A DNA stretch of 64,000 nucleotides from NCBI GenBank assembly GCA_017470995.1, contig JAFUXI010000008.1, positions 1 through 64,000 of the forward strand. Direction: 5' to 3'. Positions 36,943 through 64,000 of the stretch are shown here, one piece after another. The position numbers were made by a program, and so were the translations under genes. Within the stretch, counting starts at the first letter, position 1. Each line of letters begins with the position of its first letter. The notes beneath the pieces are model-generated. The model ran no database searches, was not told the DNA's origin, and saw nothing but the letters and a program-made list of their open reading frames with translations. Source of the DNA: Spirochaetales bacterium (lineage in GTDB: Bacteria; Spirochaetota; Spirochaetia; Sphaerochaetales; Sphaerochaetaceae).

Positions 36943-37851
36943 ATGAGTAAAGAAAGACGGATTATTCCGCAATCTGAACGATATGCCAGATGGGGTTATG
37001 CTTTCATAACCCCCTGGGTCATCGGCTTTTTGGTATTCACCTTCCTGCCGATGGTATTCTCCATGTATCTTGCCTTTACAGATTATGATACGATCAACCC
37101 TCCCAAGTGGGTGGGTTTTTCGAATTTTGCGAAGATGTTCACAAAGGGCGAGATGTGGCACAGCCTCTGGATCACCGTCAAGTTCGGTATCCTCTCTCTG
37201 CCTCTCGGTCTGGTTTCAGGCTTCCTTCTTGCATATCTCCTTAATATGAAGATACCCGGAATGAAGTTCTGGAGAACCATCTTCTATCTGCCGGCAATGA
37301 TAAGCGGTGTTGTAGTCGCCATGCTGTGGAGAGGAATGTTCGACGATCAGTACGGTATGATCAACTTCATCCTCAGAACCGCAGGACTGCGAGGTCCCCA
37401 GTGGCTTTTGGATCCGAAGTACACCCTGTACTGTTTCCTCTTCCTCTCCGTATGGGGATGCGGAGGTGGTATGGTCGTTTACCTTTCCGGTCTTCAGAGC
37501 ATACCCACTGCACTATATGAGGCAGCCGAAATCGACGGTTGCAGCAAGTTCCAACAGCTGATTCATGTTACTGTCCCGCAGATGACCCCGATCTTCTTCT
37601 TCAACCTGATCATGGGTCTTATCGGAATGTTCCAGTACTTCGCAGAACCTATGGTCCTGACAAAAGGAGGACCGGCGGATTCGACGATGTTCTACAACCT
37701 GTATCTGTACAAGCACGCATTCCAGTTCAGAAACATGGGCTATGCATCCGCATTGGCCTGGTTCCTGTTCATGATAGTGCTTCTGCTGACACTTTTGACC
37801 TTCAAGTCTTCGGAACTCTGGGTCTTCTATGAGTCGGAGGTGAAGAAATGA
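36943..37851 (+). CDS. ABC sugar transporter permease (MalF-like)
   Basis: 302 aa, six membrane helices starting YAFITPWVIGFLVFTFLPM. The EAA loop for docking the ATPase is YEAAEIDGCSKFQQLIHVTVPQMTP near residue 190. Nine bases after the binding protein; overlaps the second permease (ATGA). Confidence 0.94.
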   Translation: MSKERRIIPQSERYARWGYAFITPWVIGFLVFTFLPMVFSMYLAFTDYDTINPPKWVGFSNFAKMFTKGEMWHSLWITVKFGILSLPLGLVSGFLLAYLLNMKIPGMKFWRTIFYLPAMISGVVVAMLWRGMFDDQYGMINFILRTAGLRGPQWLLDPKYTLYCFLFLSVWGCGGGMVVYLSGLQSIPTALYEAAEIDGCSKFQQLIHVTVPQMTPIFFFNLIMGLIGMFQYFAEPMVLTKGGPADSTMFYNLYLYKHAFQFRNMGYASALAWFLFMIVLLLTLLTFKSSELWVFYESEVKK

Positions 37852-41002: not shown

Positions 41003-41003
41003 G

Positions 41004-44139: not shown

Positions 44140-44170
44140 TTTCCTGATTGTCGAAATATAGGTAGATACC

Positions 44171-47941: not shown

Positions 47942-47948
47942 ACTTGAA

Positions 47949-47976
47949 AGCATATCACTTTCACGTGAAAAAGCAA
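47949..47976 (-). promoter_or_regulatory. Promoter of the deacetylase with palindromic operator in the spacer
   Basis: Minus strand: TTGCTT (47976-47971), 16-base spacer containing TTTCACGTGAAA, TATGCT (47954-47949), then seven bases to ATG 47941. The palindrome shares the CGTGAAA half site with the boxes at 35232, 35345, 49472 and 49710. Confidence 0.6.
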
Positions 47977-48405: not shown

Positions 48406-48786
48406 ATGAAGTATGTTTATCCTGCCGTTTTCGAACCGGCTGAAGAGGGTGGCTACATTGTTACTGTTCCTGATGTTCCACATTGCTACACCTCCGGCAA
48501 AGACATGGCTCAAGCTATTGAAATGGCCCAGGATGCAGCTGCTATGCTTCTTGTGGACTTTGAGGACGAAGGCTCTCAGATTCCCGAACCAAGCAATCTC
48601 GACGATTTGCAGACTACATCCATAAAGTCCCTCGTCCTTGTCGATACTGACTCATGGAGAAAGGAATTCGATAGCCGCGCAGTAAAGAAAACCCTCACGA
48701 TTCCTTCCTGGCTCAATACCAAGGCAGAGCGTGCCGGCGTCAACTTCTCCCAGCTTTTGCGTGATGCCCTGATGTCGGTTGTCTGA
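48406..48786 (+). CDS. hicB: HicB antitoxin
   Basis: 126 aa; GGAG precedes the ATG. The N-terminal half is the partial RNase H-like fold (YPAVFEPAEEGGYIVTVPDVPHCYTSGKDMAQAIEMAQDA), and the C-terminus is a ribbon-helix-helix (LTIPSWLNTKAERAGVNFSQLLRDAL) for DNA binding. It neutralises HicA and should bind the repeated CACGTG of its promoter. Eighteen bases after hicA. Confidence 0.94.
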   Translation: MKYVYPAVFEPAEEGGYIVTVPDVPHCYTSGKDMAQAIEMAQDAAAMLLVDFEDEGSQIPEPSNLDDLQTTSIKSLVLVDTDSWRKEFDSRAVKKTLTIPSWLNTKAERAGVNFSQLLRDALMSVV

Positions 48787-48815
48787 GCCATTCCTTTCAA
48801 GGCCGATACCCCTGA

Positions 48816-49214
48816 TTCAGACTCAAAAATGTCAAATATTCACAATTCATCGATGATGTGAGAAAATTGAAGAAGACGGAGACCACAAGGGAAGCAGTGG
48901 AAAGAGCCATCGATATGCATCCTACTGATTCACCGATAAAAAGGATCTTGGAAGACAACAGAGCGGAGGTGTCTGAGATGTTCATGTATGAATTCAATGA
49001 AGAGGAGTACAGGGAAGTAATCAGGGAAGAAGCTCATGAGGAAGGACTTGCGAAAGGCCTTGCGGAAGGGCGCGCAGAAGGGCGCGCAGAAGGCGAACGG
49101 CGAATTGCCTTGCTCATGACCAAGCTGAAGGAGCTTGGCCTGGTTGAAGACGCATTCAAGGCTGCCTCGGATCCCGAATTCAGAAACAAGCTCTACAAAG
49201 AATACAATCTCTAG
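48816..49214 (+). pseudogene. Remnant of a PD-(D/E)XK nuclease-family transposase-like (Rpn-type) gene
   Basis: The frame is open from 48816 after a TGA, with no ATG; the first usable start is GTG 48858, without a ribosome site. What remains is the C-terminal tail of the family: YSQFIDDVRKLKK, then EAVERAIDM, ILEDNRAEVSEMFMYEFNEEEY and the repetitive (E/A)EGLAKGLAEGRAEGRAEGE tail. The catalytic N-terminal two thirds is missing. A GCGCAGAAGG repeat codes the tail. Sits directly after hicB, consistent with a decayed mobile segment. Confidence 0.7.
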
Positions 49215-49471: not shown

Positions 49472-49495
49472 AGTTTTAACGTGAAAACAAGGAGG
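49472..49495 (+). promoter_or_regulatory. Operator-like box with orphan ribosome site
   Basis: GTTTTAACGTGAAAAC is followed at once by AAGGAGG (49489-49495), the same arrangement as at 49710, but no proper gene follows: the nearest ATG (49516) is 20 bases on and opens only 17 codons. It looks like a duplicated or abandoned gene front. Confidence 0.55.
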
Positions 49496-49680: not shown

Positions 49681-49725
49681 TTGACAATCGACTTTTTGTA
49701 CTTCTATAATTTTAACGTGAAAAAA
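49681..49725 (+). promoter_or_regulatory. Promoter and operator of the surface-lipoprotein cluster
   Basis: TTGACA (49681-49686), 18-base spacer, perfect TATAAT (49705-49710), then the box TTTTAACGTGAAAAAA (49710-49725) over the RNA start region and AAAGGAGAG leading to ATG 49738. A repressor on this box would block the promoter. Confidence 0.8.
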
Positions 49726-49737
49726 GGAGAGTGCTAT

Positions 49738-50562
49738 ATGGCTAAGAAAATCACCTTTACAATGTTAGTCTTGCTGATTGTTTCAGCATTAGTTTTTGTT
49801 TCCTGTTCTCAGGAAACCGGTGGCAAGGTCCCCGGACCCGCACCTGCACCGGTAACCAAAATCGAGAACAAGGCCGGCGAAGTCAGCGGAAACATCGTTT
49901 ACAACGGCGACTTTGAGAGCGGCACTGATTCAGACCTCTCCGGAGACGGAGCAGGTATCGAGGTTGTTGAAATCGAAGAAGGACACGCTCTTCTTGTTGA
50001 CCAGCAGGAGACCTATGGTGAAGTCATGATGGACATCACCAAGTACTACGGTGCCGGAAAGAGCTTCTATGTCGAAGGTTGGTTCAAGGATGCAGAAAGC
50101 ACAAATACTGCCGACCTGACTGCAAAGCTGTCATTCAACATCGTTACCGGCGGCGGATATGAGACAATCCATCAGACCTACGACATCCCCGGTCAGTATG
50201 ACGGATCATGGCTTTCTGACGATGAGGCTGAGGAAATCTTCGGAATCGAGACCAACTGCATCGGAGAGGACATCTCGGACGGTGAGTGGCACAAGGTTTC
50301 CGCAATCCTGGATGCAGAGCAGATCGATGCCGTTATGACCAGCGAGGACGATCAGTGCCACTGGACAGGCGACAAGACCATGTACCTGCTTGCTGTCGTA
50401 TGGTATGTCGGAACCTATCCCGATCAGGGCGGTTACAAGTACTATCTCGACAACGTCGTGATCAAGGACCTCAACAGAGAACTCCCGACACAGGGAAGAA
50501 CCTACGAAGCACCTGAAGAGCCTGAAGAGGAAGAGCCGGAAGAGGATCTTGAGGATCTCTGA
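49738..50562 (+). CDS. Lipoprotein with CBM4/9-like carbohydrate-binding domain
   Basis: 274 aa from MAKKITFTMLVL at 49738. Lipobox near LVFVSC, then a Pro-rich linker. The domain begins GNIVYNGDFESGTDSDLSG, with the NGDFE..G start, the later YVEGWFKD and KYYLDNVVIKD end, all typical of CBM4/9 beta-sandwiches. The C-terminus is an acidic Glu/Pro tail (EAPEEPEEEEPEEDLEDL). First gene of the cluster behind the strong promoter-operator; probably binds a glycan at the cell surface. Confidence 0.82.
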   Translation: MAKKITFTMLVLLIVSALVFVSCSQETGGKVPGPAPAPVTKIENKAGEVSGNIVYNGDFESGTDSDLSGDGAGIEVVEIEEGHALLVDQQETYGEVMMDITKYYGAGKSFYVEGWFKDAESTNTADLTAKLSFNIVTGGGYETIHQTYDIPGQYDGSWLSDDEAEEIFGIETNCIGEDISDGEWHKVSAILDAEQIDAVMTSEDDQCHWTGDKTMYLLAVVWYVGTYPDQGGYKYYLDNVVIKDLNRELPTQGRTYEAPEEPEEEEPEEDLEDL

Positions 50563-50586
50563 TCTTCCGAATCAATTGAACGGATT

Positions 50587-50613
50587 TTGGCCATCAGCGT
50601 GTCTGGTGGCCAA
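50587..50613 (+). other. Stem-loop between two lipoprotein genes
   Basis: Eleven-base stem TTGGCCATCAG/CTGGTGGCCAA (one G-U) with a CGTGT loop. No T run follows, so it may be an RNA processing or stabilising hairpin rather than a terminator. Confidence 0.6.
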
Positions 50614-50653
50614 TGGCGTAATAAAAAGAAGACATTAGAAAAAGGAGAAAAGC

Positions 50654-53617
50654 ATGAAGTTAAGAAACTTTCTTATCGTTCTATTCGCCGTTCTTATGGT
50701 CTTTGCATTCGCAAGCTGTAAGAATGAGCCGAAAGTAGATCCGAAGCCGACACCCAAGCCGCAGCCTCAGATCCCTGAGTATTATCAGATCGAGGTTACT
50801 GAAGGTGTAGACAAGGACTACTGGAACAGAGACAAGATCAAGATCGAATGGGAAGAGGAAGTCAATGCCGGCGACGTCATTACCCTCAAGTACAGATCTG
50901 AAAGAGATGTCTACCAGTGGGATATCAGAGACGGTTCACTGAAGTGGGTCTATGAAACAAAGAAAGGCTCCTTCACAGATCCTGTCCTCGGCGAAGACGG
51001 ATGGTACACACTTACCTACACATTTGCCAATGATATCAACGGTGCTGCTGTCGATTCCAACGAGAGATTCGGTGTCTACTTCAGAGGCAACTATGTAACG
51101 ACAGACCTGTTCGAGATCAAGGACATCTACCTCAATGATGAGCCTCTGGAGATCACACAGGACAACATCAAGAGCTATGCAGTCCTCAACGGAACCGATG
51201 AGAACCCGATCATAGAGCACGACTGGAGCGTAAAGAACTGGTCAGTTCTGTTTGCAACCGGTACTGTCGGTGAAGTCGACAAGACTCCGCTTGCAGAAAA
51301 GGTTGTTGACGGAGGATTTGTCACAGGTGCTCCTGTTGCCAAGGAAGGCTACACGCTGTCAATCTTCACGGATGCATCTCGCACAACTCCCTTCGATGCA
51401 ACACAGCCCATCACCGAGAATAAGATTTTCTACTATTCTTATGTTGGTGTTCCCAGAACAGTTACCTTCAACACAATGGGTGGTTCCGAACTCGAGCCCG
51501 AGATCGTAGCCAACGGCGACATGCTTGTTGCTGCCGAAGAGCCGACCAAGGAAGGCGTTGCATTCAAGGCATGGTATAAGGACGAAGGTCTCACAGAAGC
51601 TTGGGTCATGACTGATCCTGTCCTTGGCGACATGACTCTCTATGCCGCATACGGCACACCCAGAACAGTCACATTCCAGGCCAACAACGGAGAGGAAGCT
51701 ACAACAAAGATTGTTGCTGACGGCAACGCAGTCAAGACTCCTGAGATTCCGACCAACGGATCCAAGATGTTCATCGGCTGGTTCACAGATGACGGAACAT
51801 TCGAGGTCCCATATAACTTCTCAGATCCTGTCACAGCTGACATCACAATCTATGCAGCCTGGGTCAACGCAACTGATGTAACACTCATGGATGGCACAAC
51901 AACCATCAAGACCTTCAAGACAGCTCTTGATGTCGCTCTTGCTGAGGATGATGAGAACCTTGCAATCGAAGATGACCGCATCGGCGAAGTCTTCGGTGGA
52001 TGGTATGCAGATGCTGAACTTACAACAGAGTATGATTACACAGCAGTTGTGACCGCACCTGTTACTCTCTATGCAAAGTGGACAGAGGCTCCCGTCTACA
52101 AGATGGTTGCAACACATGGTGTCGCAGAGGGTCTGTATGACTATGATAAGTTTGAGCTCAAGTACACTGCTGATGCTGAAAAGGTAAATGCAGGCGATGT
52201 GATCTCATTCAGATACAGATCAACAACACCGTTCACATTCTTCAGCGTCAGAGATTCAATTAAGTGGGTCTATGAGGACAGCACGGCAACCCGTGGAATG
52301 GATACTTACGAGACAAAGGAAGACGGATGGACATATGTCACGTATACTTTCACTGCAAAGTCATATGATGGCAAGGCAGACGCACCCGCCAATGCAACCT
52401 GGAAGTTCCACTTCGGTTCAAGAACCATTGTAGTTGGTGATGTCCTTGAAATTCAGGATCTCACACTCAACGGCAAGCCGCTTGAGGCTAAGCCCTCTTC
52501 AAGTTATGCAGCTCCGACTCTCTCTACTCTCGAAACAGCTGATGAATGGGCGGCTCATACCGTAACATTCAATACAAATGAGGGTTCGGCAATAGAAGCT
52601 GTTTCCATTGCATATGGTGGAAAGCTTGAGAAACCTGAAGATCCTACAAAGGAAGGAGTTCTCTTTGATGCATGGTTTACCGATGCAGAGCTCACAACTG
52701 CATTCAACTTCGATACACCGATTTTCGAAGACATCACTCTCTATGCAAAGTATGGTGAGACAGCCACTGTCACGTTCAGCGGTGCAGAGATTGAACCTGT
52801 AGTTCTTCTCAAGGGACATAAAGTTGCACAGCCTGCTGATCCTGCCAAGGCAGAGAACGTATTCGGCGGATGGTATGCAGATTCCGAATTCACAACAAAG
52901 TTCGATTTCACAGCTGCAATCGAAGCTGACACAACAATCTACGCCAAGTGGGTTCCGTCTTGGACAGTAACCATTAATTTCAATTATGGCGAGACTCCGG
53001 AGACAAAGGCAGTCTATGTCGGAAAGGGCGCTGTCATGGCAGCTCCGAATGGAATCGGCAGACCTGGCTACTTCCTTGAGGGTCTGTATGACGATGCAGG
53101 ATGCACAGTTGCTCACGATTTCGCAGCTGCTGTTACAGCTGACGCAACAATCTATGCAAAGTGGACAGCTGCCAACAAGGAATACAAGTACACGGCAACC
53201 GGAGACAAGGATCGCTTCCAGTTCAGATGGAAAGCTTCTTCTGTTGCAGCCCTTGATACTCTCAAGGCCGGTGATGTCCTTACATTCCAGGTGAAGTTCA
53301 CTCCTGTTGCAGGTTCTGCTCCGACCACCTACAGACTCAGATCCCAGTCTCCTGAGAGTGACATCGGACACAAGAATATCAGTCTTCCTAAAGCAGATGC
53401 TGACGGATGGATTTCTGTGAAGATTGTCATTGCTGAAGATGTTTCCGGTACCGGACTCGGACTCCTTCTCGGTCTGAACGGAACAGTAAAGGCAACCGAT
53501 ATCATGGAGATTAAGGGTGTTGCATTCAATGGTGTTGAGGTTCCTATCTCAACAAGCAGCACATCAAGCGGTCTCTATCCGGGAGCTCCTTGTGATGTTG
53601 AGGTTATTAATCTCTAA
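50654..53617 (+). CDS. Large surface lipoprotein: three copies of a new beta domain and seven InlB-type repeats
   Basis: 987 aa, lipid cysteine C22 (FAFASC). Three copies of a ~125-residue beta-rich domain (about residues 43-165, 468-630 and 845-980) share the order 'AGDVI-[TS]-[LF]-[KR]-YRS ... EDGW-x-[TY]-[LV]-TYTF ... EI-x-D-x-x-LN-x-x-P-L'. Between them are seven ~65-residue Listeria-Bacteroides (InlB B / Flg_new) repeats, four before and three after the second copy, each with VTF...GG..., GW[FY]...F and LYAKW. AAAGGAG precedes the ATG. It ends with a hairpin terminator. Probably a stalk that displays binding modules; the ligand is unknown. Confidence 0.88.
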   Translation: MKLRNFLIVLFAVLMVFAFASCKNEPKVDPKPTPKPQPQIPEYYQIEVTEGVDKDYWNRDKIKIEWEEEVNAGDVITLKYRSERDVYQWDIRDGSLKWVYETKKGSFTDPVLGEDGWYTLTYTFANDINGAAVDSNERFGVYFRGNYVTTDLFEIKDIYLNDEPLEITQDNIKSYAVLNGTDENPIIEHDWSVKNWSVLFATGTVGEVDKTPLAEKVVDGGFVTGAPVAKEGYTLSIFTDASRTTPFDATQPITENKIFYYSYVGVPRTVTFNTMGGSELEPEIVANGDMLVAAEEPTKEGVAFKAWYKDEGLTEAWVMTDPVLGDMTLYAAYGTPRTVTFQANNGEEATTKIVADGNAVKTPEIPTNGSKMFIGWFTDDGTFEVPYNFSDPVTADITIYAAWVNATDVTLMDGTTTIKTFKTALDVALAEDDENLAIEDDRIGEVFGGWYADAELTTEYDYTAVVTAPVTLYAKWTEAPVYKMVATHGVAEGLYDYDKFELKYTADAEKVNAGDVISFRYRSTTPFTFFSVRDSIKWVYEDSTATRGMDTYETKEDGWTYVTYTFTAKSYDGKADAPANATWKFHFGSRTIVVGDVLEIQDLTLNGKPLEAKPSSSYAAPTLSTLETADEWAAHTVTFNTNEGSAIEAVSIAYGGKLEKPEDPTKEGVLFDAWFTDAELTTAFNFDTPIFEDITLYAKYGETATVTFSGAEIEPVVLLKGHKVAQPADPAKAENVFGGWYADSEFTTKFDFTAAIEADTTIYAKWVPSWTVTINFNYGETPETKAVYVGKGAVMAAPNGIGRPGYFLEGLYDDAGCTVAHDFAAAVTADATIYAKWTAANKEYKYTATGDKDRFQFRWKASSVAALDTLKAGDVLTFQVKFTPVAGSAPTTYRLRSQSPESDIGHKNISLPKADADGWISVKIVIAEDVSGTGLGLLLGLNGTVKATDIMEIKGVAFNGVEVPISTSSTSSGLYPGAPCDVEVINL

Positions 53618-53637
53618 TCTTAATTGATTGATTCCAT

Positions 53638-53675
53638 GTGCCACTCGGGCAACCGGGTGGCACTTTGGGATTTTT
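53638..53675 (+). terminator. Terminator after the 987-residue lipoprotein gene
   Basis: Stem GTGCCACTCGG/CCGGGTGGCAC (53638-53648 with 53653-53663, one G-U) with a GCAA tetraloop, followed by TTTGGGATTTTTG. Confidence 0.85.
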
Positions 53676-53714
53676 GTTTGTTTGAATCATATATATTTAT
53701 AAGGAATTATGGAA

Positions 53715-54269
53715 ATGAAGAAGCCGGTTGTTATTTTACTTTGTCTGATGGCTGTTTTTGCTATTGTTTCCTGTAAGCAGGACCCCAAGCCTGCCGATGA
53801 ACCCGCACCTGTTGTCGAGGACGGCGGAGTTCTTACAGTAAAGCCGGCTTCCGCAGATGTTACTTGGGGAAATACAGACAGATTCCAGTTTTTGATCAAT
53901 CAGGAATTCGCCGATGGGGATTCAATTGAGTTCCTCCTGAAGCTTTCCGATTCATTTGAAAAGATTGTTCCCAGAAGCGGAAACGAGGCACTCAGCTGGC
54001 CCAAGTTCAGTACTTTGGCTTTGACAGCACTTGAGCAGACCGAGGATGGTTGGTACATCGTCAGCGTTACTGCCAATGACGAGTATGAGCAGTTGGGAAT
54101 CACTGCCATGCTTACAGGCGGTGCCGTTCAGGATGAGAATCTATTTGTCTCGATCAAGAACCTGAAGATCGGCGGCAAGCTGATTGATTTCGCAACATAT
54201 GACGAAGAAACCTGTGTTGCTCCGCTCGTGGCATGCCCGAGCGAAGTGACTGCTACTATAGAAAAATAA
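53715..54269 (+). CDS. Lipoprotein, single copy of the new beta domain (A)
   Basis: 184 aa from ATG 53715 (MKKPVVILLCL); another ATG two codons upstream is too close to AAGGA. Lipobox near AIVSC followed by KQDPKPADEPAP. The domain starts VLTVKPASADVTWGNTDRFQF and has SIEFLLKLSD, QTEDGWYIVSVTA and LFVSIKNLKIGG. By this pattern it is related to the genes at 54285 and 54967 and to the three domains in the 987-residue protein. Confidence 0.75.
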   Translation: MKKPVVILLCLMAVFAIVSCKQDPKPADEPAPVVEDGGVLTVKPASADVTWGNTDRFQFLINQEFADGDSIEFLLKLSDSFEKIVPRSGNEALSWPKFSTLALTALEQTEDGWYIVSVTANDEYEQLGITAMLTGGAVQDENLFVSIKNLKIGGKLIDFATYDEETCVAPLVACPSEVTATIEK

Positions 54270-54284
54270 TAAGGAGTGAAGGAT

Positions 54285-54941
54285 ATGAAGAGATTTCTTT
54301 CCATTATTTTTGCACTTCTTGCGGTTCTGATCATCGTTTCATGCAATCAGGACCCCAAAGCATCCGATGACCCTGCTCCCGCGCCGGCACCCGCACCTTC
54401 GGCAACAGATGAAGATGTGCTTGCCGGAAACGCATATTACAGACTTACGGCAACCAGAGAGGCAAAGAGATTTGCACTGCAGTATCTGGATGAGGAAGAC
54501 AGCACATATGATCCGGATGAAGGAGATGTGCTGACTCTCAAATACAGGACAAACCATTCCGTCGACCGCATATATCTGAGAGACTCTTCCCAGAATACTG
54601 TTTTCTCTGACGGAAGTTATCATACCATTGCGGAAGCTGATGATGAGTATGTTACCGGACCGGATGAGGACGGATGGTACACCTTTACCTTCACGTTCCC
54701 CGAGATGCTCGATACCAAGTTCGGTTTCCGCCTTGAGCTTTGCAACTACGGTGTCGGCAAATTCCAGCCCGGTGATTATCTTGACATCAAGGATCTTGAA
54801 TTCAAGGGGCAGAAACTGACCATCGAAGCTGCCAATGAAGACAACGAGTACCAGAGCAATCAGGGTGTTTATAATGCCGGATATACAGAAACAGGCAATA
54901 AGGACCACACTCTGCCTACGCTTTCGATTATCAAACTGTAA
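54285..54941 (+). CDS. Lipoprotein, single copy of the new beta domain (B)
   Basis: 218 aa from ATG 54285 (MKRFLSIIFALL); GGAG ten bases upstream. Lipobox near LIIVSC, then NQDPKASDDPAPAPAPAP linker. Closest of the three small proteins to the large lipoprotein: YYRLTATREAKRFALQYLDEE, then DVLTLKYRTNHSVDRIYLRDS, EDGWYTFTFTFPE and YLDIKDLEFKGQKL. No catalytic motif. Confidence 0.75.
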   Translation: MKRFLSIIFALLAVLIIVSCNQDPKASDDPAPAPAPAPSATDEDVLAGNAYYRLTATREAKRFALQYLDEEDSTYDPDEGDVLTLKYRTNHSVDRIYLRDSSQNTVFSDGSYHTIAEADDEYVTGPDEDGWYTFTFTFPEMLDTKFGFRLELCNYGVGKFQPGDYLDIKDLEFKGQKLTIEAANEDNEYQSNQGVYNAGYTETGNKDHTLPTLSIIKL

Positions 54942-54966
54942 CATGTAACAAAGGAGAGAATGGAAA

Positions 54967-55602
54967 ATGAAGAAACTTCTTGTATTTCTTTTCGTTTTGA
55001 TTGCAATCTTTGCATTCGCATCCTGCAAACAGGATCCGAAGAATGCAGAGCCCACACCCGCTCCGGAACCGGAGCCGGAAAATGTTGAACCCGAGCCCGT
55101 TGCTCCCATCGAGGAAGCCGGAGTTCTGTTCGTAAGACCCGCAGAAGGTGCTACATACAGCCAGACCGGCAAGTTCCAGTTCAAGCTGGATGTTTCATTC
55201 AATGCAAACGAGGCAATTGCCCTTTATGCAAAGTTCTCCAGCGACATTACATCCGTTGCTGTCAGACAGGGCGGCGGAGATAATACCAAATTCAAGGTAA
55301 ACGGTGTCGAGGCCGTACCCCTTGATGATTATGAGCAGGATGAAGACGGCTGGTACATCATTGCCATTCCCGCTGAAAGCGTAACACCCAATAGCGGCGG
55401 AGCTGCCGTTGATTCATGGCTCGGCCTCGGAATCACTGCCTATACTTCAGCGGTCGAAAGGGCCAACTGTTTCATCGCTCTCAAGGGCCTGAAACTCGGC
55501 GATGAGTACTTCGACATCACCATGTGGGACGAGGAAGACTGTGCTCAGCCCTACTACACATCACCTGACAAGCTGGATGTGACTCTGACATTGGATGAAT
55601 AA
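54967..55602 (+). CDS. Lipoprotein, single copy of the new beta domain (C)
   Basis: 211 aa; lipobox near FAFASC, followed by KQDPKNAEPTPAPEPEPENVEPEP. Domain: VLFVRPAEGATYSQTGKFQF, AIALYAKFSSDI, QDEDGWYIIAIPA and CFIALKGLKLGDEYFDI, in the same order as copy A. Copies A and C look like the closest pair. Confidence 0.75.
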   Translation: MKKLLVFLFVLIAIFAFASCKQDPKNAEPTPAPEPEPENVEPEPVAPIEEAGVLFVRPAEGATYSQTGKFQFKLDVSFNANEAIALYAKFSSDITSVAVRQGGGDNTKFKVNGVEAVPLDDYEQDEDGWYIIAIPAESVTPNSGGAAVDSWLGLGITAYTSAVERANCFIALKGLKLGDEYFDITMWDEEDCAQPYYTSPDKLDVTLTLDE

Positions 55603-55624
55603 TTATAAATAGGAGATATGGAAA

Positions 55625-56251
55625 ATGAAAAAAGCACTGTTGATTATTGGAATGATGGCACTTGTATGTGCAGTGGCATTCGCAGCAGAGAACCTCATCA
55701 GCTTCGGCGACATGGAAAGCGGTTCCACCACCAGCTGGATGGAGGAAGGAAGCTCACTCAAGTATGACAAGGGCAAGGGAATCGATGGTTCCACAGGTCT
55801 TCTTGTCAAGAATACTGAGGATTGGAGTGGCGTAGGTCTCGATCTGACAAAGATCCTCGACAGGACCAAGAGCTACTACATCGAGTGCTGGGTCAAGCTC
55901 TACAAGGCAGAGAAGAACCCGGTCAAGGCTTCCATCACACTCGAGTTCAGACCCGACCAGCTTCAGGGCTACGGTGAGGACTGGGAGAGCTACGGCTATG
56001 TCCAGACCAATATCGACCTCGATTACGAGGAGAGAGAGTCCACAGGAAACGAGATTGAGGTTAATGCAACAGAGTATGTGAAGCTCAGCGGCGTCATCAG
56101 ACCTGAAGATATGGAAACCCTTATCGACAACCACGGTGTCGAGATTACAAGACCGATTGTCGGAGTTACCTGCTACTTCAAGATCGAGCCCGCAAAGGCC
56201 AGAAGATACTGGGTTGACAACGTCTACATCGTAGAGATTCCCAACGTCTGA
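55625..56251 (+). CDS. Secreted CBM4/9-like protein
   Basis: 208 aa. Cleavable signal peptide (MKKALLIIGMMALVCAVAFAAE; no lipobox, so probably periplasmic or secreted). Mature domain ENLISFGDMESGSTTSW, GSTGLLVKNTEDWSGVGLDLTKIL, YYIECWVKLY and a YWVDNVYIVEI end, the CBM4/9 pattern as in the gene at 49738. GGAG precedes the ATG. Confidence 0.8.
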   Translation: MKKALLIIGMMALVCAVAFAAENLISFGDMESGSTTSWMEEGSSLKYDKGKGIDGSTGLLVKNTEDWSGVGLDLTKILDRTKSYYIECWVKLYKAEKNPVKASITLEFRPDQLQGYGEDWESYGYVQTNIDLDYEERESTGNEIEVNATEYVKLSGVIRPEDMETLIDNHGVEITRPIVGVTCYFKIEPAKARRYWVDNVYIVEIPNV

Positions 56252-56290
56252 TAAAAGACGATGAATCATAGAAACAATGGAGGGAAACCA

Positions 56291-58390
56291 ATGAAGAGAT
56301 CTATTAGTTTACTTCTCATAGCACTGATGATGCTCACGGTGCTTTTCGTATCGATTTCCTGTAAGGAAGCTGCGGAAGAGCCGCAGGAGCAGGGAACTGT
56401 CGTGACATTCGACACACAGGGCGGATCCAAGATCGATCCTGTTTCCGTCGAGCCAGGCACAAAGGTAATCAAGCCCAAGAAGAACCCTACTTACAACGGT
56501 TATGTCTTCCTCGGCTGGTACACCGACAAGGCCGGAACAACAGAGTATGATTTCTCTGCTGCCGTAAACGAGAGCATCACTCTCTATGCCAAGTGGCAGG
56601 ATCAGACTTCCTACGAGCACAGCGATCCTATTCTCCCGAAGGGAAGTGTTGCATTGAACAACAACTCATTCACAATCCCAATGGATTGGAGCGTGAATCC
56701 CAAGGGAAAGACCGGTCTTCCTGCAGTTACTTACAGCTTCTCGGGTGAGAGAACCAATGTGACCAACGTCACCCCCGAACTCGTGGCTGCCGTCAAGAAT
56801 ACTCCGCAGAGCTTCTTCGACGAGACTCCGAAAAAGATTCTCTTCCTGTTCAGCGACGGATGGGGAGTCACGGAAGTCAATATGTCCAGAGAGTATAAGG
56901 GTGAACTTATCATGGATTCACTGCCGTACAAGACAGAGTCCAAGACCGATGCCTACAAGCAGTACAGCTTCACGGATGCAAGTGTAAACAGCGATTACAC
57001 CTCACATTCTACAACCGACAGCTGCGCCGGCGGCACTCAGGTTCTCGCAGGTTACAAGACCAGATACGGCTACATCTCTCTTGATGTCGATGCAAACCCG
57101 GTCACGACCCTGATCGAGGCCGCACACGCCAAGGGATGGGCAACAGCCAACGTCACCAACGACAACATCGTAGATGCAACACCGTCTGCAGCCATGATCC
57201 ACGATACCAACAGATATCACTCGGATGTCCTGTACTACAAGGCTCTCAAGTATGCTCTTGCAGAGCAGGGTCTGGACCTCCTGATGGGTTGGGACTGGGG
57301 CATGAGCACCTATTACGCAACCGGTGACTGGGCCAGCAGACTTCTCAGCGCTGAGAAGGAAGGTATCAAGGATGCCATCTCAAGGCAGAAGCTCACATCA
57401 GCTGCTGCAAAGGCCGACTACAGCGACTCGATCAAATACTTCAAGGGCCTGTCCACCGACGAGAAGTACAAGGTTGCTTCATTCTCCGTGTACTATACTC
57501 TGTGGGAGAACCAGGATCCTGCAAGACGCAATTCCTTCCAGAGATGGACAACTACCGGAAGCGGAGAGCTTACACAGTATCTGAACTGGCTTGAGAGCCC
57601 GAGCGGACTTGCTGCAGCCATTGCCAACCTCGATTCCACATTCGGAAATCCTGCTGATTTCGTGACCAGATACACGAAGTTCAAGGATATTGTTGAGAAC
57701 ACGGATTTCTCCAAGCCGCTTCTCGGCTGCTGGACAAGCGACGGAAACGACTATGATTCCAATACTCCCAACAGAGGCTACACCATCCACGGCTCAATCG
57801 GAAAGGCATATCCTTCCTATCCCGAGATGGTTGCCTACACCATCTATCAGCTGGATAAGGAAGCCGGTGTTGACGGCGGATTCTTCACCATCATCGAGAA
57901 CACATGTACCGACGGTTGGGGACACTCCAACAACCAGGATACAAAGGTCTACAGCATGATGAACGAGGTCCAGTGCTTCGACGAAGGAGTTGCAATCGCA
58001 GTCAAGTACGTCCTCGAGCACCCGGATACACTGCTTGTCCTTTCGGCTGACCATGAGACCGGCGGATACAGACTCAGAGAAGGTTGGGAGACCGACTTCA
58101 GCATGATTTCGTCCACGACAACCGGCCACTCAAGCCAGAATGTACCTCTCTATGCTTTCGGAGCAGGTGCACAGAACTTCTCTGCAGAGGCAATCCTTGC
58201 CAAGTACGGTTCACAGGCCAATGCCGGACTTGAGCAGGACGGTAAGATCCACGAAGGTTGGATCACAGGTGCCCTCATGGGTGAGCTGATTACCGGAGAA
58301 GCTTTCGGTCTGACCGGAAATGCCGCATACAAGGGACAGCCGTTCACGACAAGCGGCACACCTTACGGCGGCCGCCTGTGGGAAAATTAA
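56291..58390 (+). CDS. Alkaline-phosphatase-family lipoprotein with one InlB-type repeat
   Basis: 699 aa from MKRSISLLLIAL at 56291 (GGAGGG upstream; a more distal in-frame ATG at 56261 has none). Lipobox near VSISC. Residues about 45-110 are one InlB/Flg_new repeat (VTFDTQGGSKIDPVSV...FLGWYTDKAG...LYAKW). Then a PhoA-fold domain: ILFLFSDGWGVTEV (metal Asp), DSCAGGTQVLAGYKT with nucleophile S244, IENTCTDGWGHSNN, LSADHETGGYRL and HSSQNVPLYAFGAG. All main catalytic positions seem present. It should remove phosphate from an extracellular ester, held to the surface by the lipid anchor. Confidence 0.9.
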   Translation: MKRSISLLLIALMMLTVLFVSISCKEAAEEPQEQGTVVTFDTQGGSKIDPVSVEPGTKVIKPKKNPTYNGYVFLGWYTDKAGTTEYDFSAAVNESITLYAKWQDQTSYEHSDPILPKGSVALNNNSFTIPMDWSVNPKGKTGLPAVTYSFSGERTNVTNVTPELVAAVKNTPQSFFDETPKKILFLFSDGWGVTEVNMSREYKGELIMDSLPYKTESKTDAYKQYSFTDASVNSDYTSHSTTDSCAGGTQVLAGYKTRYGYISLDVDANPVTTLIEAAHAKGWATANVTNDNIVDATPSAAMIHDTNRYHSDVLYYKALKYALAEQGLDLLMGWDWGMSTYYATGDWASRLLSAEKEGIKDAISRQKLTSAAAKADYSDSIKYFKGLSTDEKYKVASFSVYYTLWENQDPARRNSFQRWTTTGSGELTQYLNWLESPSGLAAAIANLDSTFGNPADFVTRYTKFKDIVENTDFSKPLLGCWTSDGNDYDSNTPNRGYTIHGSIGKAYPSYPEMVAYTIYQLDKEAGVDGGFFTIIENTCTDGWGHSNNQDTKVYSMMNEVQCFDEGVAIAVKYVLEHPDTLLVLSADHETGGYRLREGWETDFSMISSTTTGHSSQNVPLYAFGAGAQNFSAEAILAKYGSQANAGLEQDGKIHEGWITGALMGELITGEAFGLTGNAAYKGQPFTTSGTPYGGRLWEN

Positions 58391-58402
58391 GGAATTATTC
58401 CT

Positions 58403-59467
58403 ATGAAGAGAAAAACAGTATTGCTGATTTCTCTGATAGCAGTTCTTCTGCTTGCAGGCCTCTGTGCCTGCAAGCAGGAGGTTACTCCAGAGGAACCTAA
58501 GCCAGCCAGTGATCCCATTCCGAAATGGGAAAAGAGCAATGACGGCCTCCAGAATCTTCCGGATATCTATCCTTCCGGAACCGCGACGGGTGTGACAGAG
58601 GCACTTATCAACGGATTGAAGAACCCGCCGACATTCAAAGATGCAAAAAACCTGATTGTCATAGTCTGCGAAGGCCTGACAACAGAACTCATAGATTCCG
58701 TAAGCGGTGAAACCATTCTCAAGAACCTGCCGGTGAAGGGAACAACGACTTCCAAGTTTACTGACGCAGAAGGAAAGATCCTTGCCGACTATGTCATCAA
58801 CGACCTATACAAGACCAAGACCGGTATCGCATCGTGGGGAGAGCTTACCACCAACAGCATGAGGCGCATGACAACTACGGACGGCAATGAGGTATCATCT
58901 GCCAAGGTCAGCTATGACCAGTTCGAGCCCATCAACGGAATTTCGATTTCAATGACGCTTGGCAAGGCCGACTTTTCAGAGGTAAACGCTTCCGCGGACC
59001 AGCTGAATGAAATCTACAAATCCAGCGCTGTTTTCACATCATCGCTGGAGGAAGCCATTCCCCTGTACAAGAAGACTGATTATCATTTCTATTTCGATGA
59101 GGGCCGCCAGCATGACGGGCCTGTCAACAAGCTCTACACCATCTATACAAGTCTTGAGAGCCTGCCTTCCTTCAGACAGGAGGCTGCGTTCTCTCTTGCC
59201 TGGATGCAGAGTGTAATGATTAAGAATGACGGCTTTGCGCTGTTCATGTCCTACAGCCCGTCTACCGCGTTGGATGCCGACGGACTCAGGGACTTCGACG
59301 AAGGTCTGGCAGTTGCGGTCAAGTATGTGCTTGAGAACCCGGATACTGTCCTTCTGGTCTGCGGATGCCCCGTGGACGGCTCTGTTGCAAGTGTTCCGTT
59401 CTACGGAATAGGTAAGGGTGTTTCCGCCCAGAGCACACTCTACGAGTGCGTAAGCTCCGTATTCTGA
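58403..59467 (+). CDS. Degenerate alkaline-phosphatase paralogue (pseudo-enzyme), lipoprotein
   Basis: 354 aa, lipobox near LLAGLCAC. Follows the order of its two neighbours but with catalytic sites lost: FKDAKNLIVIVCEGLTTEL where they read VIIISDGMG (metal Asp gone); LTTNSMRRMTTT where they have DS-A-AGGT; and LLVCGCPVDG where they have ADHETG. Framework parts such as DGLRDFDEGLAVAVKYVLENPDTVLLV and VPFYGIGKG match well. No frameshift, and the frame and anchor are intact, so it may be a kept non-catalytic binder. Distance of 12 bases from the preceding gene. Confidence 0.8.
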   Translation: MKRKTVLLISLIAVLLLAGLCACKQEVTPEEPKPASDPIPKWEKSNDGLQNLPDIYPSGTATGVTEALINGLKNPPTFKDAKNLIVIVCEGLTTELIDSVSGETILKNLPVKGTTTSKFTDAEGKILADYVINDLYKTKTGIASWGELTTNSMRRMTTTDGNEVSSAKVSYDQFEPINGISISMTLGKADFSEVNASADQLNEIYKSSAVFTSSLEEAIPLYKKTDYHFYFDEGRQHDGPVNKLYTIYTSLESLPSFRQEAAFSLAWMQSVMIKNDGFALFMSYSPSTALDADGLRDFDEGLAVAVKYVLENPDTVLLVCGCPVDGSVASVPFYGIGKGVSAQSTLYECVSSVF

Positions 59468-59474
59468 TTTGTCT

Positions 59475-59503
59475 GCTGGCCGGTTTCCGGCCAGCTGTTT
59501 TTT
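59475..59503 (+). terminator. Terminator after the degenerate phosphatase gene
   Basis: Perfect stem GCTGGCCGG/CCGGCCAGC with a TTT loop, followed by TGTTTTTT. Confidence 0.88.
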
Positions 59504-59536
59504 ACTGGTATCTGATTTGATTAAAAAGGAGTTGAT

Positions 59537-61507
59537 ATGAAGAAGATTTCTTTCAGGATCCTGTCTGTTCTTCTTGCTTTGCTGATGATGTTCAGCATTG
59601 TCGCATGTAATCAGGAGAGCGCACAGCCTTCTCCCGAACCCACCCCGGTAGAACCGGAAAAACCGGCTCTTACAACCAAGTATTATATGCCCGCAGGCTG
59701 GAGCACAAAGGTCACGACTCCGATGTGGACAACTAAGGACGAAGGCACCGTCACCGTTCCCGATGCAGTGCTTGAGGGAGATTTCGAGACAGAAGTCACC
59801 AACGTGACTCCCGAGCTCAAGGCCGCCTTGGCAGCCGCAGTTGCCGATCCCGATTACTTCAAGGATGTAAAGAATGTCATCGTCATCATCAGTGACGGTA
59901 TGGGAATCACGCATGTGCAGGCATCCGAAGTCTGGAGTGGTGATCTGATCATGACACGTCTGCCCAATGTAGGAGCTTCAAAAACCCTTACACGTGAAGG
60001 AATCTACACCGACAGCGCAGCAGGCGGAACCGCACTCTCTGCCGGTTACAAGACCACAAAGCTCTTTGCCAACGTCGATGCAGAGGGCAATGACCTGAAG
60101 AATGTCTCCGAACTGGCAAGAGAGCAGGGTAAACTTGTAGGTATTGTCACAAATGCGGAGCTTGCCGATGCAACGCCGGCATGCTACAGCATCCACAACA
60201 AGAACAGAAGCCAGGGTTGGACCAAGATGTGTGAGCAGGAAGTCGTCTTCGGAGCAGACCTGTTCATGGGCAACGGCTACGGCGATTACTCCACATACTT
60301 CACCAGCACAGGCAACGAGCTTTATCCTATAACAGTTGCAAACAACATGAAGCTCTACAGACAGGCTTCGGATATCGTCAACCATTTTGCAGATGATGCC
60401 AAGATGTGGGCAATCTTCAGCGCAACCGCCAACAAGTTCGCCAGATTCGATACAACAAGCAAGAACTATCCGAACCTGCAGCAGATGACAGCCTATGCTC
60501 TTTCCTGGCTTGATGCCCACGATACCGCAGACAAGGGATTTGTGGTCATGATCGAGAACACCTATACCGACCACTTCGGACATGGCAATACTCCGCTTGA
60601 CGGTTCCGACAATACATACGGCATTGTCAAGGAAGTCCAGAGCACGGACGAGGCCGTGGCCATCGCCCTCAAGTATGTCCTGGAGCATCCCGATACGGCT
60701 CTGATCGTCACAGCAGACCACGAGACAGGAGCCACACAGCTCAGAGACGGATGGGAGACCGATTTTTCGCAGGTCAGGGCACCCAGCGGAAACCACTCGA
60801 CCCAGAACGTACCTGTATTTGCCATCGGAAAGGGTACCGAGGCTCTGAATTCCCTTGAGAGAACGGAAGAGGAGCGTGCAGCAGGTCTCAGATGGGCAGA
60901 GGCAACTCCGTATGAGAATGACAGAATCGGACAGGTTGTCGGAGCTCTTCTTGGCGATGACACCTTCGGCGGCGACGTAGCAACGGATGACAGCAGCAAG
61001 ACAAGTCCGAAGTTCGAGATTACAACCTCTGCTGTAGCCAACACTCTGACCTACACGCTTGAGATGACCGGTCCCTGGATCCAGAAAGGCAATTACATCC
61101 AGTTCAAGATCAAGCCCGTAAGCTCAAGCGACAAGATCACAGTGGTTGTTCAGGACAAGGACGGCACACCGAGCACTACAGCCGAGCTTCCAGAGACGGT
61201 ATTCTCGAGTACGGACGGCAAGACCCTCGAGATGAATGGCTACTATGCCACAACTCCGCTCATGAAGGCCTACAAACAGGCGTTTGTAACCACCTCGGGT
61301 TTCGAGGATGGCTGGTATCAGGTTTCCGTACCTGCAAACTCCAAGGGCAACAAGCTTGTGATTACGCTGACATCCTCAGGAGCATTCCCAGCAGGGTCCA
61401 AGATCGGCATGGATGACCTGACAATCCAGTTCGCATCCACAATCGGCTATCTCAAGTTCAGTTCAACCAATGCAACCGCATCTGGTGCCTGCCTTGTTGC
61501 CGAATGA
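59537..61507 (+). CDS. Alkaline-phosphatase-family lipoprotein with C-terminal beta domain
   Basis: 656 aa; AAAAGGAG precedes the ATG. Lipobox near FSIVAC. PhoA-fold domain about residues 85-480: VIVIISDGMGITHVQ (metal Asp), DSAAGGTALSAGYKTT with nucleophile S160, IENTYTDHFGHGN, VTADHETGATQL and HSTQNVPVFAIGKG. Residues about 490-640 are a beta domain with GFEDGWYQVSVPANS and KIGMDDLTIQF, in the style of the domain seen in the genes at 53715-55602. So an active-looking phosphatase is joined to a module shared with its neighbours. Confidence 0.9.
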   Translation: MKKISFRILSVLLALLMMFSIVACNQESAQPSPEPTPVEPEKPALTTKYYMPAGWSTKVTTPMWTTKDEGTVTVPDAVLEGDFETEVTNVTPELKAALAAAVADPDYFKDVKNVIVIISDGMGITHVQASEVWSGDLIMTRLPNVGASKTLTREGIYTDSAAGGTALSAGYKTTKLFANVDAEGNDLKNVSELAREQGKLVGIVTNAELADATPACYSIHNKNRSQGWTKMCEQEVVFGADLFMGNGYGDYSTYFTSTGNELYPITVANNMKLYRQASDIVNHFADDAKMWAIFSATANKFARFDTTSKNYPNLQQMTAYALSWLDAHDTADKGFVVMIENTYTDHFGHGNTPLDGSDNTYGIVKEVQSTDEAVAIALKYVLEHPDTALIVTADHETGATQLRDGWETDFSQVRAPSGNHSTQNVPVFAIGKGTEALNSLERTEEERAAGLRWAEATPYENDRIGQVVGALLGDDTFGGDVATDDSSKTSPKFEITTSAVANTLTYTLEMTGPWIQKGNYIQFKIKPVSSSDKITVVVQDKDGTPSTTAELPETVFSSTDGKTLEMNGYYATTPLMKAYKQAFVTTSGFEDGWYQVSVPANSKGNKLVITLTSSGAFPAGSKIGMDDLTIQFASTIGYLKFSSTNATASGACLVAE

Positions 61508-61515
61508 GGTAGGTT

Positions 61516-62628
61516 ATGAAGAAGCTAGGTTTATTCCTGCTGATTCTGTTGATGCTCATGTGTGCCTGTTCATGTGAGAAGCCGGGTGCCTACAAGGAAG
61601 CTGAAAAAAGCTCTGCGGCCGCTATCAAGCAGCGGCCCAAGAGCGAGGCTTCCGATACTGTCCTGGCAAGCTCCAAACGCAACGTAATCTATGCCTATTC
61701 CTTAAGCGATGTCACATATCCGGACCAGTTCACGGCTATAGTGATTTCGTTCCTGGATACATTCCCCGACGGGCGTGTGAACGAGAAGACGTTCCCGCAC
61801 ATCAAGGATACTCTGGATACCTTCCATGAGAAGTATCCGTACACCAAGGTCATAGCAGGCCTGGGCGGTGCCAGCAACAGCGATAGGCTGGGAGAGGTCA
61901 TCATGGATCCTGCAAAGCGCAAGGTGCTTGCAGAGACCACTGCTGCCTTGGTAAAGAGCCGCGGCATCGACGGCATCGACCTTGACTGGGAGTACTATTC
62001 GGATTATGCGGAGCGCAATGCCGCATATCTGGATCTGGCCCTGCAGCTTCGTGAGCTGCTTGGAAACGACATCATCCTTTCGATGGCCGGCCAGAGCGCA
62101 GGCAGTTTCTACAACGAGCCCAGCTGTATCCGCCTGATGAACGATGTTCTGGACTACACAAGCGTCATGACCTATGACTTTGATTACAGCAACAGGACAA
62201 GCGGAAAAATCGCCTACAACGGCAATTTTACGCAACTGAGGGGAGTCATGGAAGGTTACGCCTCTGTCGTAAATGACAAGTCCAAGCTTCTGATAGGTCT
62301 TCCTCTATACGGCCTGAAGTGGTGGGTTGACGAGAAGCGCATCTACTACCGCAACGAGGTCTCAAAGCGCTATGAGGGTGATTTCGGATACTCCAAGCTT
62401 TCTACCGAAATCGGAAATGCACCGATAGAGTACGTCGATGACAACGGTGTTGCCCTGGCATTCAAGACCAGGTATTCGTACGCCTTCGATGATGCCGTCA
62501 CGGTGACCACAAAGACCAACTGGGGCTGCACGAACGGCTACGGCGGAATGATGGCCTGGGTTGCCAGTTCGGACGATGCACTGTTCACCCTTGAACGTGC
62601 GGTCGTCACCGAGTTGAACAAGTACTGA
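61516..62628 (+). CDS. GH18 chitinase-like lipoprotein
   Basis: 370 aa. Lipobox near MCACSC. GH18 barrel: VIYAYSLSDV, TKVIAGLGGASN, the catalytic DGIDLDWEYY motif (D152, D155, D157, E159, all kept), SVMTYDFDYS and LLIGLPLYGLKWW, with a final YGGMMAWVASSD. The substrate should contain N-acetylglucosamine (chitin oligomers, peptidoglycan or host glycans). It ends the cluster, eight bases after the phosphatase, before a hairpin terminator. Confidence 0.92.
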   Translation: MKKLGLFLLILLMLMCACSCEKPGAYKEAEKSSAAAIKQRPKSEASDTVLASSKRNVIYAYSLSDVTYPDQFTAIVISFLDTFPDGRVNEKTFPHIKDTLDTFHEKYPYTKVIAGLGGASNSDRLGEVIMDPAKRKVLAETTAALVKSRGIDGIDLDWEYYSDYAERNAAYLDLALQLRELLGNDIILSMAGQSAGSFYNEPSCIRLMNDVLDYTSVMTYDFDYSNRTSGKIAYNGNFTQLRGVMEGYASVVNDKSKLLIGLPLYGLKWWVDEKRIYYRNEVSKRYEGDFGYSKLSTEIGNAPIEYVDDNGVALAFKTRYSYAFDDAVTVTTKTNWGCTNGYGGMMAWVASSDDALFTLERAVVTELNKY

Positions 62629-62646
62629 TAATGTAATTTATAGTTA

Positions 62647-62673
62647 AGAACCCCCGAAGATCTCGGGGGTTCT
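62647..62673. terminator. Stem-loop between the GH18 gene and the nuclease gene
   Basis: Eleven-base perfect stem AGAACCCCCGA/TCGGGGGTTCT with a five-base loop. T runs are short on both sides (GTTTG on the plus strand), so it is a moderate bidirectional terminator. Confidence 0.65.
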
Positions 62674-62701
62674 GTTTGAATAGCAAATTGAAGTCAAAAA
62701 T

Positions 62702-63487
62702 TCAATCACTTTCAGCATTAATGATCTTGTTTTCATCAAGCGCCAAATACTCACTTTGTAGTTCTTTTCTGAGTTCATCCTCTGTCGGGAGGTATAGCAT
62801 GTATTTGCTTGCAAAGATGTTTTTCTCATTTTCCGGTAACGTGTATTTGACGACAGAATCACTCTTGTCAGCACAGAAGACTATCCCGAGGGGCGGATTG
62901 TCGCCATCATTCATTAGTTCCCGTTCATAGTAATGGACATACATCTGCATTTGGCCTAAATCTTGATGGGTAAGATCGCCAGCTTTAAGGTCAATCAGGA
63001 CGAAGCATTTTAAAATGTAGTTGTACATCACTAGATCAATATAGAAATGCCTACCATCGAAGCAAATGTGTTTCTGGCGAGCTACAAAGGAAAAGCCACG
63101 GCCCAATTCGAGAAGAAACTTCTGCAGATGGGTAATTAATGCATTTTCGAGATTCGATTCATAGAAGTCATCATTAGGATGTACCCCCAGGAACTCCAGC
63201 ACATATGGATCCCTGATGAAGTCCTTAGGATGCTTGCCTGGTTCAACTTTATGGATATTATCTGCTACCGCTTCCTTGTTATGACTGGATAGCAGTCTTT
63301 CGTAGAAAAACGAGTTGATCTGTCTTTCAAGCTGTCTGACACTGTAGTTGGACTTCACAGCCTCGTCCATGTAAAACTGTCGTGCTTTATCGTCTGCTAC
63401 TCTCATCAATAGACGGTAATGCGACCAGCTCAATTGGTCACACAGTGTGTGGCGATTTGGGAATACCAAGTAAAACTGTTCATCCAT
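62702..63487 (-). CDS. DUF1016/YhcG-type PD-(D/E)XK nuclease, short form
   Basis: 261 aa; AGGAGG seven bases upstream supports this start. LSWSHYRLLMRVADDKARQFYMDEAV, then SVRQLERQINSFFYERLL, FIRDPYVLEFLG and RGFSFVARQKHICFDGRHFYIDLVMYN (nuclease core with the Asp) and CFVLIDLKAGDLTHQDLGQMQMYV (the D-x-K). Full YhcG proteins start with about 60-80 residues more, which are missing although the ribosome site is good. Related proteins occur in defence or recombination settings; here its role is unknown. AT-richer than the flanks. Confidence 0.85.
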   Translation of the reverse strand: MDEQFYLVFPNRHTLCDQLSWSHYRLLMRVADDKARQFYMDEAVKSNYSVRQLERQINSFFYERLLSSHNKEAVADNIHKVEPGKHPKDFIRDPYVLEFLGVHPNDDFYESNLENALITHLQKFLLELGRGFSFVARQKHICFDGRHFYIDLVMYNYILKCFVLIDLKAGDLTHQDLGQMQMYVHYYERELMNDGDNPPLGIVFCADKSDSVVKYTLPENEKNIFASKYMLYLPTEDELRKELQSEYLALDENKIINAESD

Positions 63488-63657: not shown

Positions 63658-64000
63658 ATGGAGAACATCAGAGTTTCCGAGTTGTTTGATCTTAAACATA
63701 CTATTGCGTCAGAGTATCTGAAGGGGTTTGCTTATCCTTGGGAGGCACTGCCCGGAATATGTGATTTAGTCAGGACTCTCGGCAAGGGTTTGGATGAAGC
63801 TGAGTATGAGAAGCGCGGTGAAGATGTCTGGGTTCACAGAAGTGCCAGGGTTGTTCCCACTGCCGTACTGGCAGGTCCGGTGATTGTGGGCCCCGGTAGC
63901 TTTGTCGGCCACTGTGCCTTCGTGCGCAACGGGGTGCTTCTTGGCTCCGACTGTACGGTAGGTACATGCGTTGAGGTCAAGAATTCCATCATATTCGACA
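63658..64000 (+). CDS. Left-handed beta-helix (GlmU/nucleotidyltransferase-like) protein, 3' cut by window edge
   Basis: The first 114 codons are visible. N-terminal part MENIRVSELFDLKHTIASEYLKG is helical, followed by hexapeptide repeats: VWVHRSARVVPTAVLAGPVIVGPGSF, VGHCAFVRNGVLLGSDCTVGTCVEVKNSII, the [LIV]-G-x-x-x-x pattern of UDP-sugar acyl/nucleotidyltransferases. The VGPGSF and GSDCTVG turns match GlmU-type C-terminal helices, but the usual N-terminal pyrophosphorylase domain is absent, so the exact reaction is open. No Shine-Dalgarno; the ATG is seven bases from the -10 box. Confidence 0.85.
   Translation, partial: MENIRVSELFDLKHTIASEYLKGFAYPWEALPGICDLVRTLGKGLDEAEYEKRGEDVWVHRSARVVPTAVLAGPVIVGPGSFVGHCAFVRNGVLLGSDCTVGTCVEVKNSIIFD

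Follow-up and report, generated by a model that had tools for sequence, protein, structure and literature searches.

A run of ten plus-strand genes in a 64,000-nucleotide stretch of DNA from a Spirochaetales bacterium (contig JAFUXI010000008.1, positions 1 to 64,000; hereafter the window) raises the question of whether a set of predicted surface lipoproteins, in which candidate carbohydrate-binding modules, alkaline-phosphatase-family proteins and a glycoside hydrolase family 18 (GH18) protein are encoded side by side, works as one system and, if so, on what. The window comes from a spirochaete bin (G000, the window's own genome) that measures 1.92 Mb and is 81% complete. On the evidence of gene content, conservation and a common operator, we regard this cassette as probably one half, the one at the cell surface, of a regulon through which rumen spirochaetes use a glycan under LacI control, the other half being a sugar importer locus at 30.9 to 48 kb of the window.

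The ten open reading frames are consecutive and tightly packed, separated by 6 to about 91 bp, and lie where the original prediction, an earlier reading of this DNA, had placed them; the start that it gave, 49681, belongs to a sigma-70 promoter (TTGACA-18-TATAAT, 12/12; 49681-49710, plus strand; similar layout in four relatives), and the first ATG is found downstream at 49738. From 5' to 3' the genes, all on the plus strand, encode protein A (49738-50562), the 987-residue stalk lipoprotein B (50654-53617), the small lipoproteins C (53709-54269), D (54276-54941) and E (54967-55602), the secreted protein F (55625-56251), the alkaline-phosphatase-family proteins AP1 (56261-58390), AP2 (58403-59467) and AP3 (59537-61507), and the GH18 lipoprotein (61516-62628). 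A lipobox cysteine is present in nine of the ten products, at the upper end of the eight or nine that had been anticipated, F alone having an ordinary signal peptide without a lipobox.

The gene set was found to be kept together in relatives, in the same order and not scattered. In G002, G005 and G018 a single contig holds the whole or nearly the whole cassette; the contigs of G003 and G007 are broken and carry matching pieces. Full-length AP2 and full-length GH18 each occur in the identical six of the 138-139 family genomes and in no others, and full-length A/F proteins and the beta domains described below are, among family genomes, confined to these carriers; A/F was not found in G007, whose contig starts inside AP1. 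G018 belongs to another genus, and here the cassette is located amid unrelated genes at a different site. A scan with AP3 over one genome per species, a single-protein scan that reaches close relatives only, returned rumen-type bins only, two of the relatives found in this way being explicitly rumen-derived, from water buffalo and roe deer.

Both halves of the locus carry a putative LacI-type operator in common. In the cassette, TTTTAACGTGAAAA lies directly 3' of the -10 box (49710-49723, plus strand), with a second copy upstream (49474-49487, plus strand); the operator occupies the position 3' of the -10 box in five species, one of them carrying TTTTAACGTTAAAA. Exact or one-mismatch copies also precede the importer genes of the window, G005, G018, G007, G003, G002, G001 and G371; in the window there are two (35233-35358, plus strand), at the point where the GH94 and importer genes diverge. 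Nine matches are present in the window when up to two mismatches are allowed on both strands, against 0.39 expected and none in 100 shuffles, and four of the five sites in the whole of the window's own genome fall inside the window. In G018, where the importer operon is on another contig than the cassette and its LacI is 81% identical, only three sites occur genome-wide at no more than one mismatch, the cassette accounting for one and the unlinked importer operon for two, and an additional site with two mismatches lies 5' of the deacetylase gene. There are both a regulator gene and conserved near-palindromic sites 5' of its presumed targets, and the position of the operators together with synteny suggests that the LacI-family regulator at 41923-42927 (plus strand), the presumed repressor of the regulon, controls the cassette, the importer operon and the GH94 and mutase genes divergent from it. 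Because the genes are unscattered in relatives and a putative regulatory site is common to both halves, the earlier view of one system is supported with respect to synteny and putative shared regulation, the substrate and the activities that it assigned remaining predictions. The predicted operator makes the regulon directly testable.

The GH18 protein provides a further tie to the importer. It scores 125 bits against PF00704 (cut-off 29.6), its DGIDLDWE motif retains an invariant DLDWE in six species, with the first Asp of the DxxDxDxE motif replaced in one, and it is the sole PF00704 gene found in the genome of each family carrier. A search of 393 genomes returned a single near orthologue outside the family, in G371, which is 54% identical and lies directly 3' of a metallophosphoesterase gene inside an importer operon. 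In G371 the genes for the solute-binding protein, the permeases, the 39061 and 40004 proteins (named here by their start in the window), LacI, the metallophosphoesterase and GH18 follow one another in a single run from which the GH94 and mutase genes diverge, and operator copies are located 5' of the importer and directly 5' of the metallophosphoesterase-GH18 pair. Since the G371 importer operon holds GH18 and the operator is common to both halves, the link to the nearby importer that had been proposed is supported. As G371 has the importer run with GH18 and without the surface cassette, GH18 seems to be part of an older import system, the surface cassette being a later addition to it; though a lipoprotein, GH18 behaves like the backbone genes and may face the periplasm. 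That the importer locus included the surface cassette from the beginning is not the simple view, as GH18 alone is there in G371 and the cassette lies elsewhere in G018.

Most of the remaining cassette proteins carry candidate binding modules. The original prediction had described A and F as CBM4/9-like; F passes the CBM_4_9 (PF02018) cut-off of 25.9 with 41.4 bits, whereas A, with 17.6 bits, falls below it, yet BLAST identifies A as a distant homologue of F. Of the seven InlB-type repeats claimed for B, six List_Bact_rpt stretches exceed the Pfam threshold and the seventh, which is degenerate, could be recognised by eye only. A profile built from C, D and E confirmed the beta domain that these proteins had been said to share with B, as a single copy in each of the three and as three copies in B (residues 58-175, 495-624 and 841-976), and revealed a copy missed earlier at the C-terminus of AP3 (residues 489-631); no significant match was obtained with A, F, AP1, AP2 or GH18. 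The domain gave no Pfam family above cut-off in C, D, E, B or AP3. AlphaFold modelled that of E confidently as a beta sandwich (predicted local distance difference test, pLDDT, 91.6), and the solved neighbours of the model include CBM4, CBM28, CBM29, CBM30 and CBM86 modules. All these matches are weak and so carbohydrate binding is merely suggested for what would be CBM-like jelly-roll domains.

Three alkaline-phosphatase-family proteins, one of them dead, had been recognised in the cassette, and this description is borne out. AP1 and AP3 score 112 and 131 bits against PF00245 (cut-off 24.4). The closest solved sequence to the proteins of this family is 2w5v, alignment to which shows the active-site residues of AP3 to be those of solved alkaline phosphatases, and an alignment of the three paralogues shows the nucleophile and the metal-binding residues of AP1, which also has an N-terminal List_Bact_rpt repeat, to be intact. 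AP2 returned no PF00245 match, and its ENT.TD..GH and ADHETG motifs are replaced in six of six species; judged by its alignments, AP2 is an alkaline phosphatase homologue and not an enzyme of the PF00245 kind. It is evidently kept by purifying selection, the ratio of non-synonymous to synonymous substitution rates (dN/dS) being 0.10-0.37 where calculable, values that are approximate as the synonymous divergence (dS) is near saturation. An in-frame stop, or an assembly error, was seen once in the AP3 of G007 (L047, about 4064).

The importer half starts on the minus strand with a GlmM-like phosphohexose mutase (30931-32670) and a confirmed GH94 glycoside phosphorylase (32692-35277). Divergent from these, on the plus strand, are the genes of a sugar ATP-binding cassette (ABC) importer, namely a solute-binding protein and two permeases (35467-39056), a conserved protein without family hits (39061-39981), two paralogous lipoproteins starting at 40004 and 40992 (40004-41903), LacI, a secreted protein that is possibly an outer-membrane barrel (43000-44139), and a purple-acid-phosphatase-like metallophosphoesterase lipoprotein (44171-46117). 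A polysaccharide deacetylase family protein of CE4 type, with no obvious signal peptide, is encoded on the minus strand (46787-47953) with an operator-like site of two mismatches 5' of its gene (47958-47971). The 39061 protein was rejected as a core-operon marker: in G009 and G010 its surroundings are unrelated, and these two genomes were not counted among the core carriers. The N-terminus of the metallophosphoesterase has a His/Cys-rich repeat run (HTF..W..D..YHWHAATCEH), shortened in G005, and in G018 a third protein of the 40004/40992 type is encoded beside the deacetylase gene (L155, 2308-3381).

How such a regulon might operate can be proposed as follows. In the absence of the inducing saccharide, LacI bound to the TTTTAACGTGAAAA sites would block the importer operon, the GH94 and mutase genes and the cassette, and in the presence of the sugar the regulon would be expressed. 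Lipid-anchored jelly-roll modules (C, D, E and the stalk B) and the CBM4/9-type A/F would then coat the cell and hold the glycan, AP1 and AP3 would strip phosphate groups off it with AP2 as a non-catalytic binding or scaffolding partner, and the GH18 lipoprotein would cleave the chain. The oligosaccharides would reach the periplasm, perhaps via the 43000 product, and be taken up by the ABC importer, after which GH94 would release a sugar 1-phosphate from them and the mutase would turn this into the 6-phosphate, the products feeding glycolysis or cell-wall synthesis. Glycan binding by the modules, action of the phosphatases on the bound glycan, cleavage of N-acetylglucosamine (GlcNAc) links by GH18 and the nature of the target are what we infer from the gene set; the substrate is most likely a GlcNAc-containing glycan and possibly a phosphorylated one, as GH18, the GlmM-like mutase, the deacetylase and NagB favour GlcNAc.

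Several observations weigh against this proposal. Compared with solved entries, GH94 scores slightly nearer to cellobiose than to chitobiose phosphorylases, and in an alignment read against PMC5309861 it appears to be without the Arg filling subsite +2 that is common to both (PMC5309861). NagA gave no match in G018, which is 98% complete and has NagB, and GlcNAc catabolism via NagA in every carrier was accordingly rejected; together with the GH94 ranking this argues for caution, and the amino-sugar reading of the target is not settled. The structural matches of the beta domain include no Foldseek E-value below 0.001 and no Z-score reaching 7. A second LacI, 79% identical, is encoded elsewhere in the genome (L132, G000 contig C48, 2587-3692) with its own operator-like site and an adjacent transporter-like gene, as is also the case in G005 (L133), and could act as a cross-regulator at the cassette and importer sites. 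Furthermore, the genomes compared are metagenome bins of 63-98% completeness.

Two narrower forms of the regulon reading concern the substrate. In the first, chitin or chito-oligosaccharides, for instance from rumen fungal walls, would be degraded by GH18 to chitobiose, GH94 would release GlcNAc 1-phosphate, the mutase would form GlcNAc 6-phosphate, and the CE4-type protein or NagA would deacetylate it. We consider this plausible, if short of an even chance: GH18 has the chitinase motif and chitinases among its best solved matches, the GH94 family includes chitobiose phosphorylase, the mutase best matches GlmM models, the deacetylase gene has its operator-like site, and NagB is above cut-off in four of five genomes tested, but chitobiose phosphorylases are not the closest to GH94, NagA was not found in G018, and three phosphatase-family proteins are left without a role. 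In the second, which appears rather unlikely, N-glycans or glycoproteins of fungal, ciliate or host origin, including phosphomannans, would be harvested with GH18 and the 40004/40992 barrels as endoglycosidases. Mannose phosphates would suit the phosphatases, and the 40004 protein was modelled as a glycosidase-like TIM barrel whose best Foldseek matches are the endo-beta-N-acetylglucosaminidases F1, BT_3987 and H; VIA-align, however, ranks many TIM-barrel glycosidases equally and does not single out this family, so that 40004 and 40992 were not assigned to it, and no alpha-mannosidase is among the families identified in the locus.

A different role, that of a phosphate-scavenging surface on which the phosphatases and the metallophosphoesterase free phosphate from organic esters while the modules merely hold the cells on phosphate-rich particles, would account for two intact PF00245 proteins, a dead homologue and a purple-acid-phosphatase-like lipoprotein in one stretch, and AP1 and AP3 are indeed the only PF00245 matches of their genome. 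We nevertheless judge it improbable, as the LacI-type operator ties the cassette to the sugar importer, GH94 and GH18 and not to phosphate genes, and as the G371 set combines GH18 and importer with no PF00245-type phosphatases nearby. That unrelated surface proteins adjoin here by accident is hardly credible: lipoprotein islands with repeats are common in spirochaetes, but a chance neighbourhood of otherwise scattered genes is contradicted by the conserved order, the exclusive co-occurrence, the relocation of the whole block in G018 and the common operator, and one recent copy in all six loci is excluded by the protein divergence between them.

Set against G005, a near relative, the window shows sequence divergence of two grades. 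Identity is 93-99%, and dS 0.23-0.42, for the importer, LacI, deacetylase and GH18 proteins, but 44-76%, with dS exceeding 1.3 or saturated, for the 40992 lipoprotein, the pair of 43000 product and metallophosphoesterase, and A to AP3; the diverged blocks span 40992-41903, 43000-46117 and 49738-61507 of the window and have mostly sharp borders. Given this high synonymous divergence, replacement of the surface genes by recombination is favoured over selection on point mutations alone. Both loci are on single long contigs, though a chimeric assembly is left as a residual explanation of the mosaic pattern. The near-identity of the importer beside strongly diverged surface genes suggests that exposed parts are under selection, with phages, protozoa or changing substrates as possible agents. 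We put forward more tentatively, and with doubt prevailing, a fuller picture of a system for phosphorylated glycans. In it a transferable surface module, with one recurring jelly-roll domain common to anchors, stalk and phosphatase and with the conserved dead phosphatase as a glycan-binding or scaffold subunit, would have come under the operator of a chromosomal LacI-importer regulon older than itself, and surface parts would be swapped between close relatives while regulator and importer stay constant.

Several features around and within the cassette complete the description. A GC-rich hairpin with a T run in the AP2/AP3 gap (59475-59495, plus strand), which five of six species have, with changes in sequence, and G018 lacks, is a possible attenuator that would lower AP3 and GH18 levels, and a strong hairpin 3' of GH18 (about 62646-62676, plus strand) probably ends the transcription unit. 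An eleventh gene, encoding an LbH (GlmU C-terminal-like) acetyltransferase-like protein, follows GH18 in all six carriers; in the window its start is present (63658-64000, plus strand) and the gene runs past the end. The spacing between the two is 1-22 bp in four relatives, and a small insert separates them in the window, a YhcG-type PD-(D/E)XK nuclease gene (62702-63487), and in G005, a small gene resembling BrnT. In the interval between the deacetylase gene and A (48406-49214), small HicB-like and Rpn/PD-(D/E)XK-like genes were recognised by eye that are absent in G005 and G003. The stalk gene B is replaced by two shorter genes in G005 (L041, 10192-12822).

The original prediction knew of no described locus with this gene set, and we too found no description of such a spirochaete locus in the open-access literature searched; as far as that literature shows, the component families are known, but neither their combination nor the dead phosphatase nor the split regulon has been described. 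AP1 and AP3 resemble PF00245 alkaline phosphatases such as 2w5v in their active-site residues but differ in their lipid anchors, in their extra List_Bact_rpt or jelly-roll domains and in having a conserved inactive homologue within the same operon. A dead phosphatase retained beside two apparently live ones, and a phosphatase that carries the candidate binding domain of the surface proteins, point to dephosphorylation as one element in the use of glycans, an aspect seldom taken into account. The pathways of GH94 chitobiose and cellobiose phosphorylases likewise have GH94 adjoining a phosphohexose mutase and a sugar importer, the difference here being the apparent loss of the acceptor-site Arg.

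LacI-controlled ABC-importer glycan loci with cytoplasmic glycoside phosphorylases are known in Gram-positive gut bacteria, and the importer half is similar to these in its solute-binding protein with two permeases, its LacI and its phosphorylase with phosphohexose mutase, but differs in the phosphatases and in having, behind the same operator, an extensive second half made up of surface lipoproteins, which in one genus is unlinked. As in the SusC/SusD polysaccharide utilisation loci of Bacteroidetes, surface lipoproteins would bind and cut the glycan before oligosaccharide uptake, as far as the genes alone indicate, and the set would be controlled by a regulator adjoining the transport genes. 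No SusC or SusD homologue was found among the genes scanned, about 24.8-63.5 kb, and ABC importer uptake, LacI-type control, the triple phosphatase block and the InlB-type-repeat stalk set the present locus apart. It is, by its predicted gene functions, a locus that works like a polysaccharide utilisation locus, but not a member of the SusC/SusD type.

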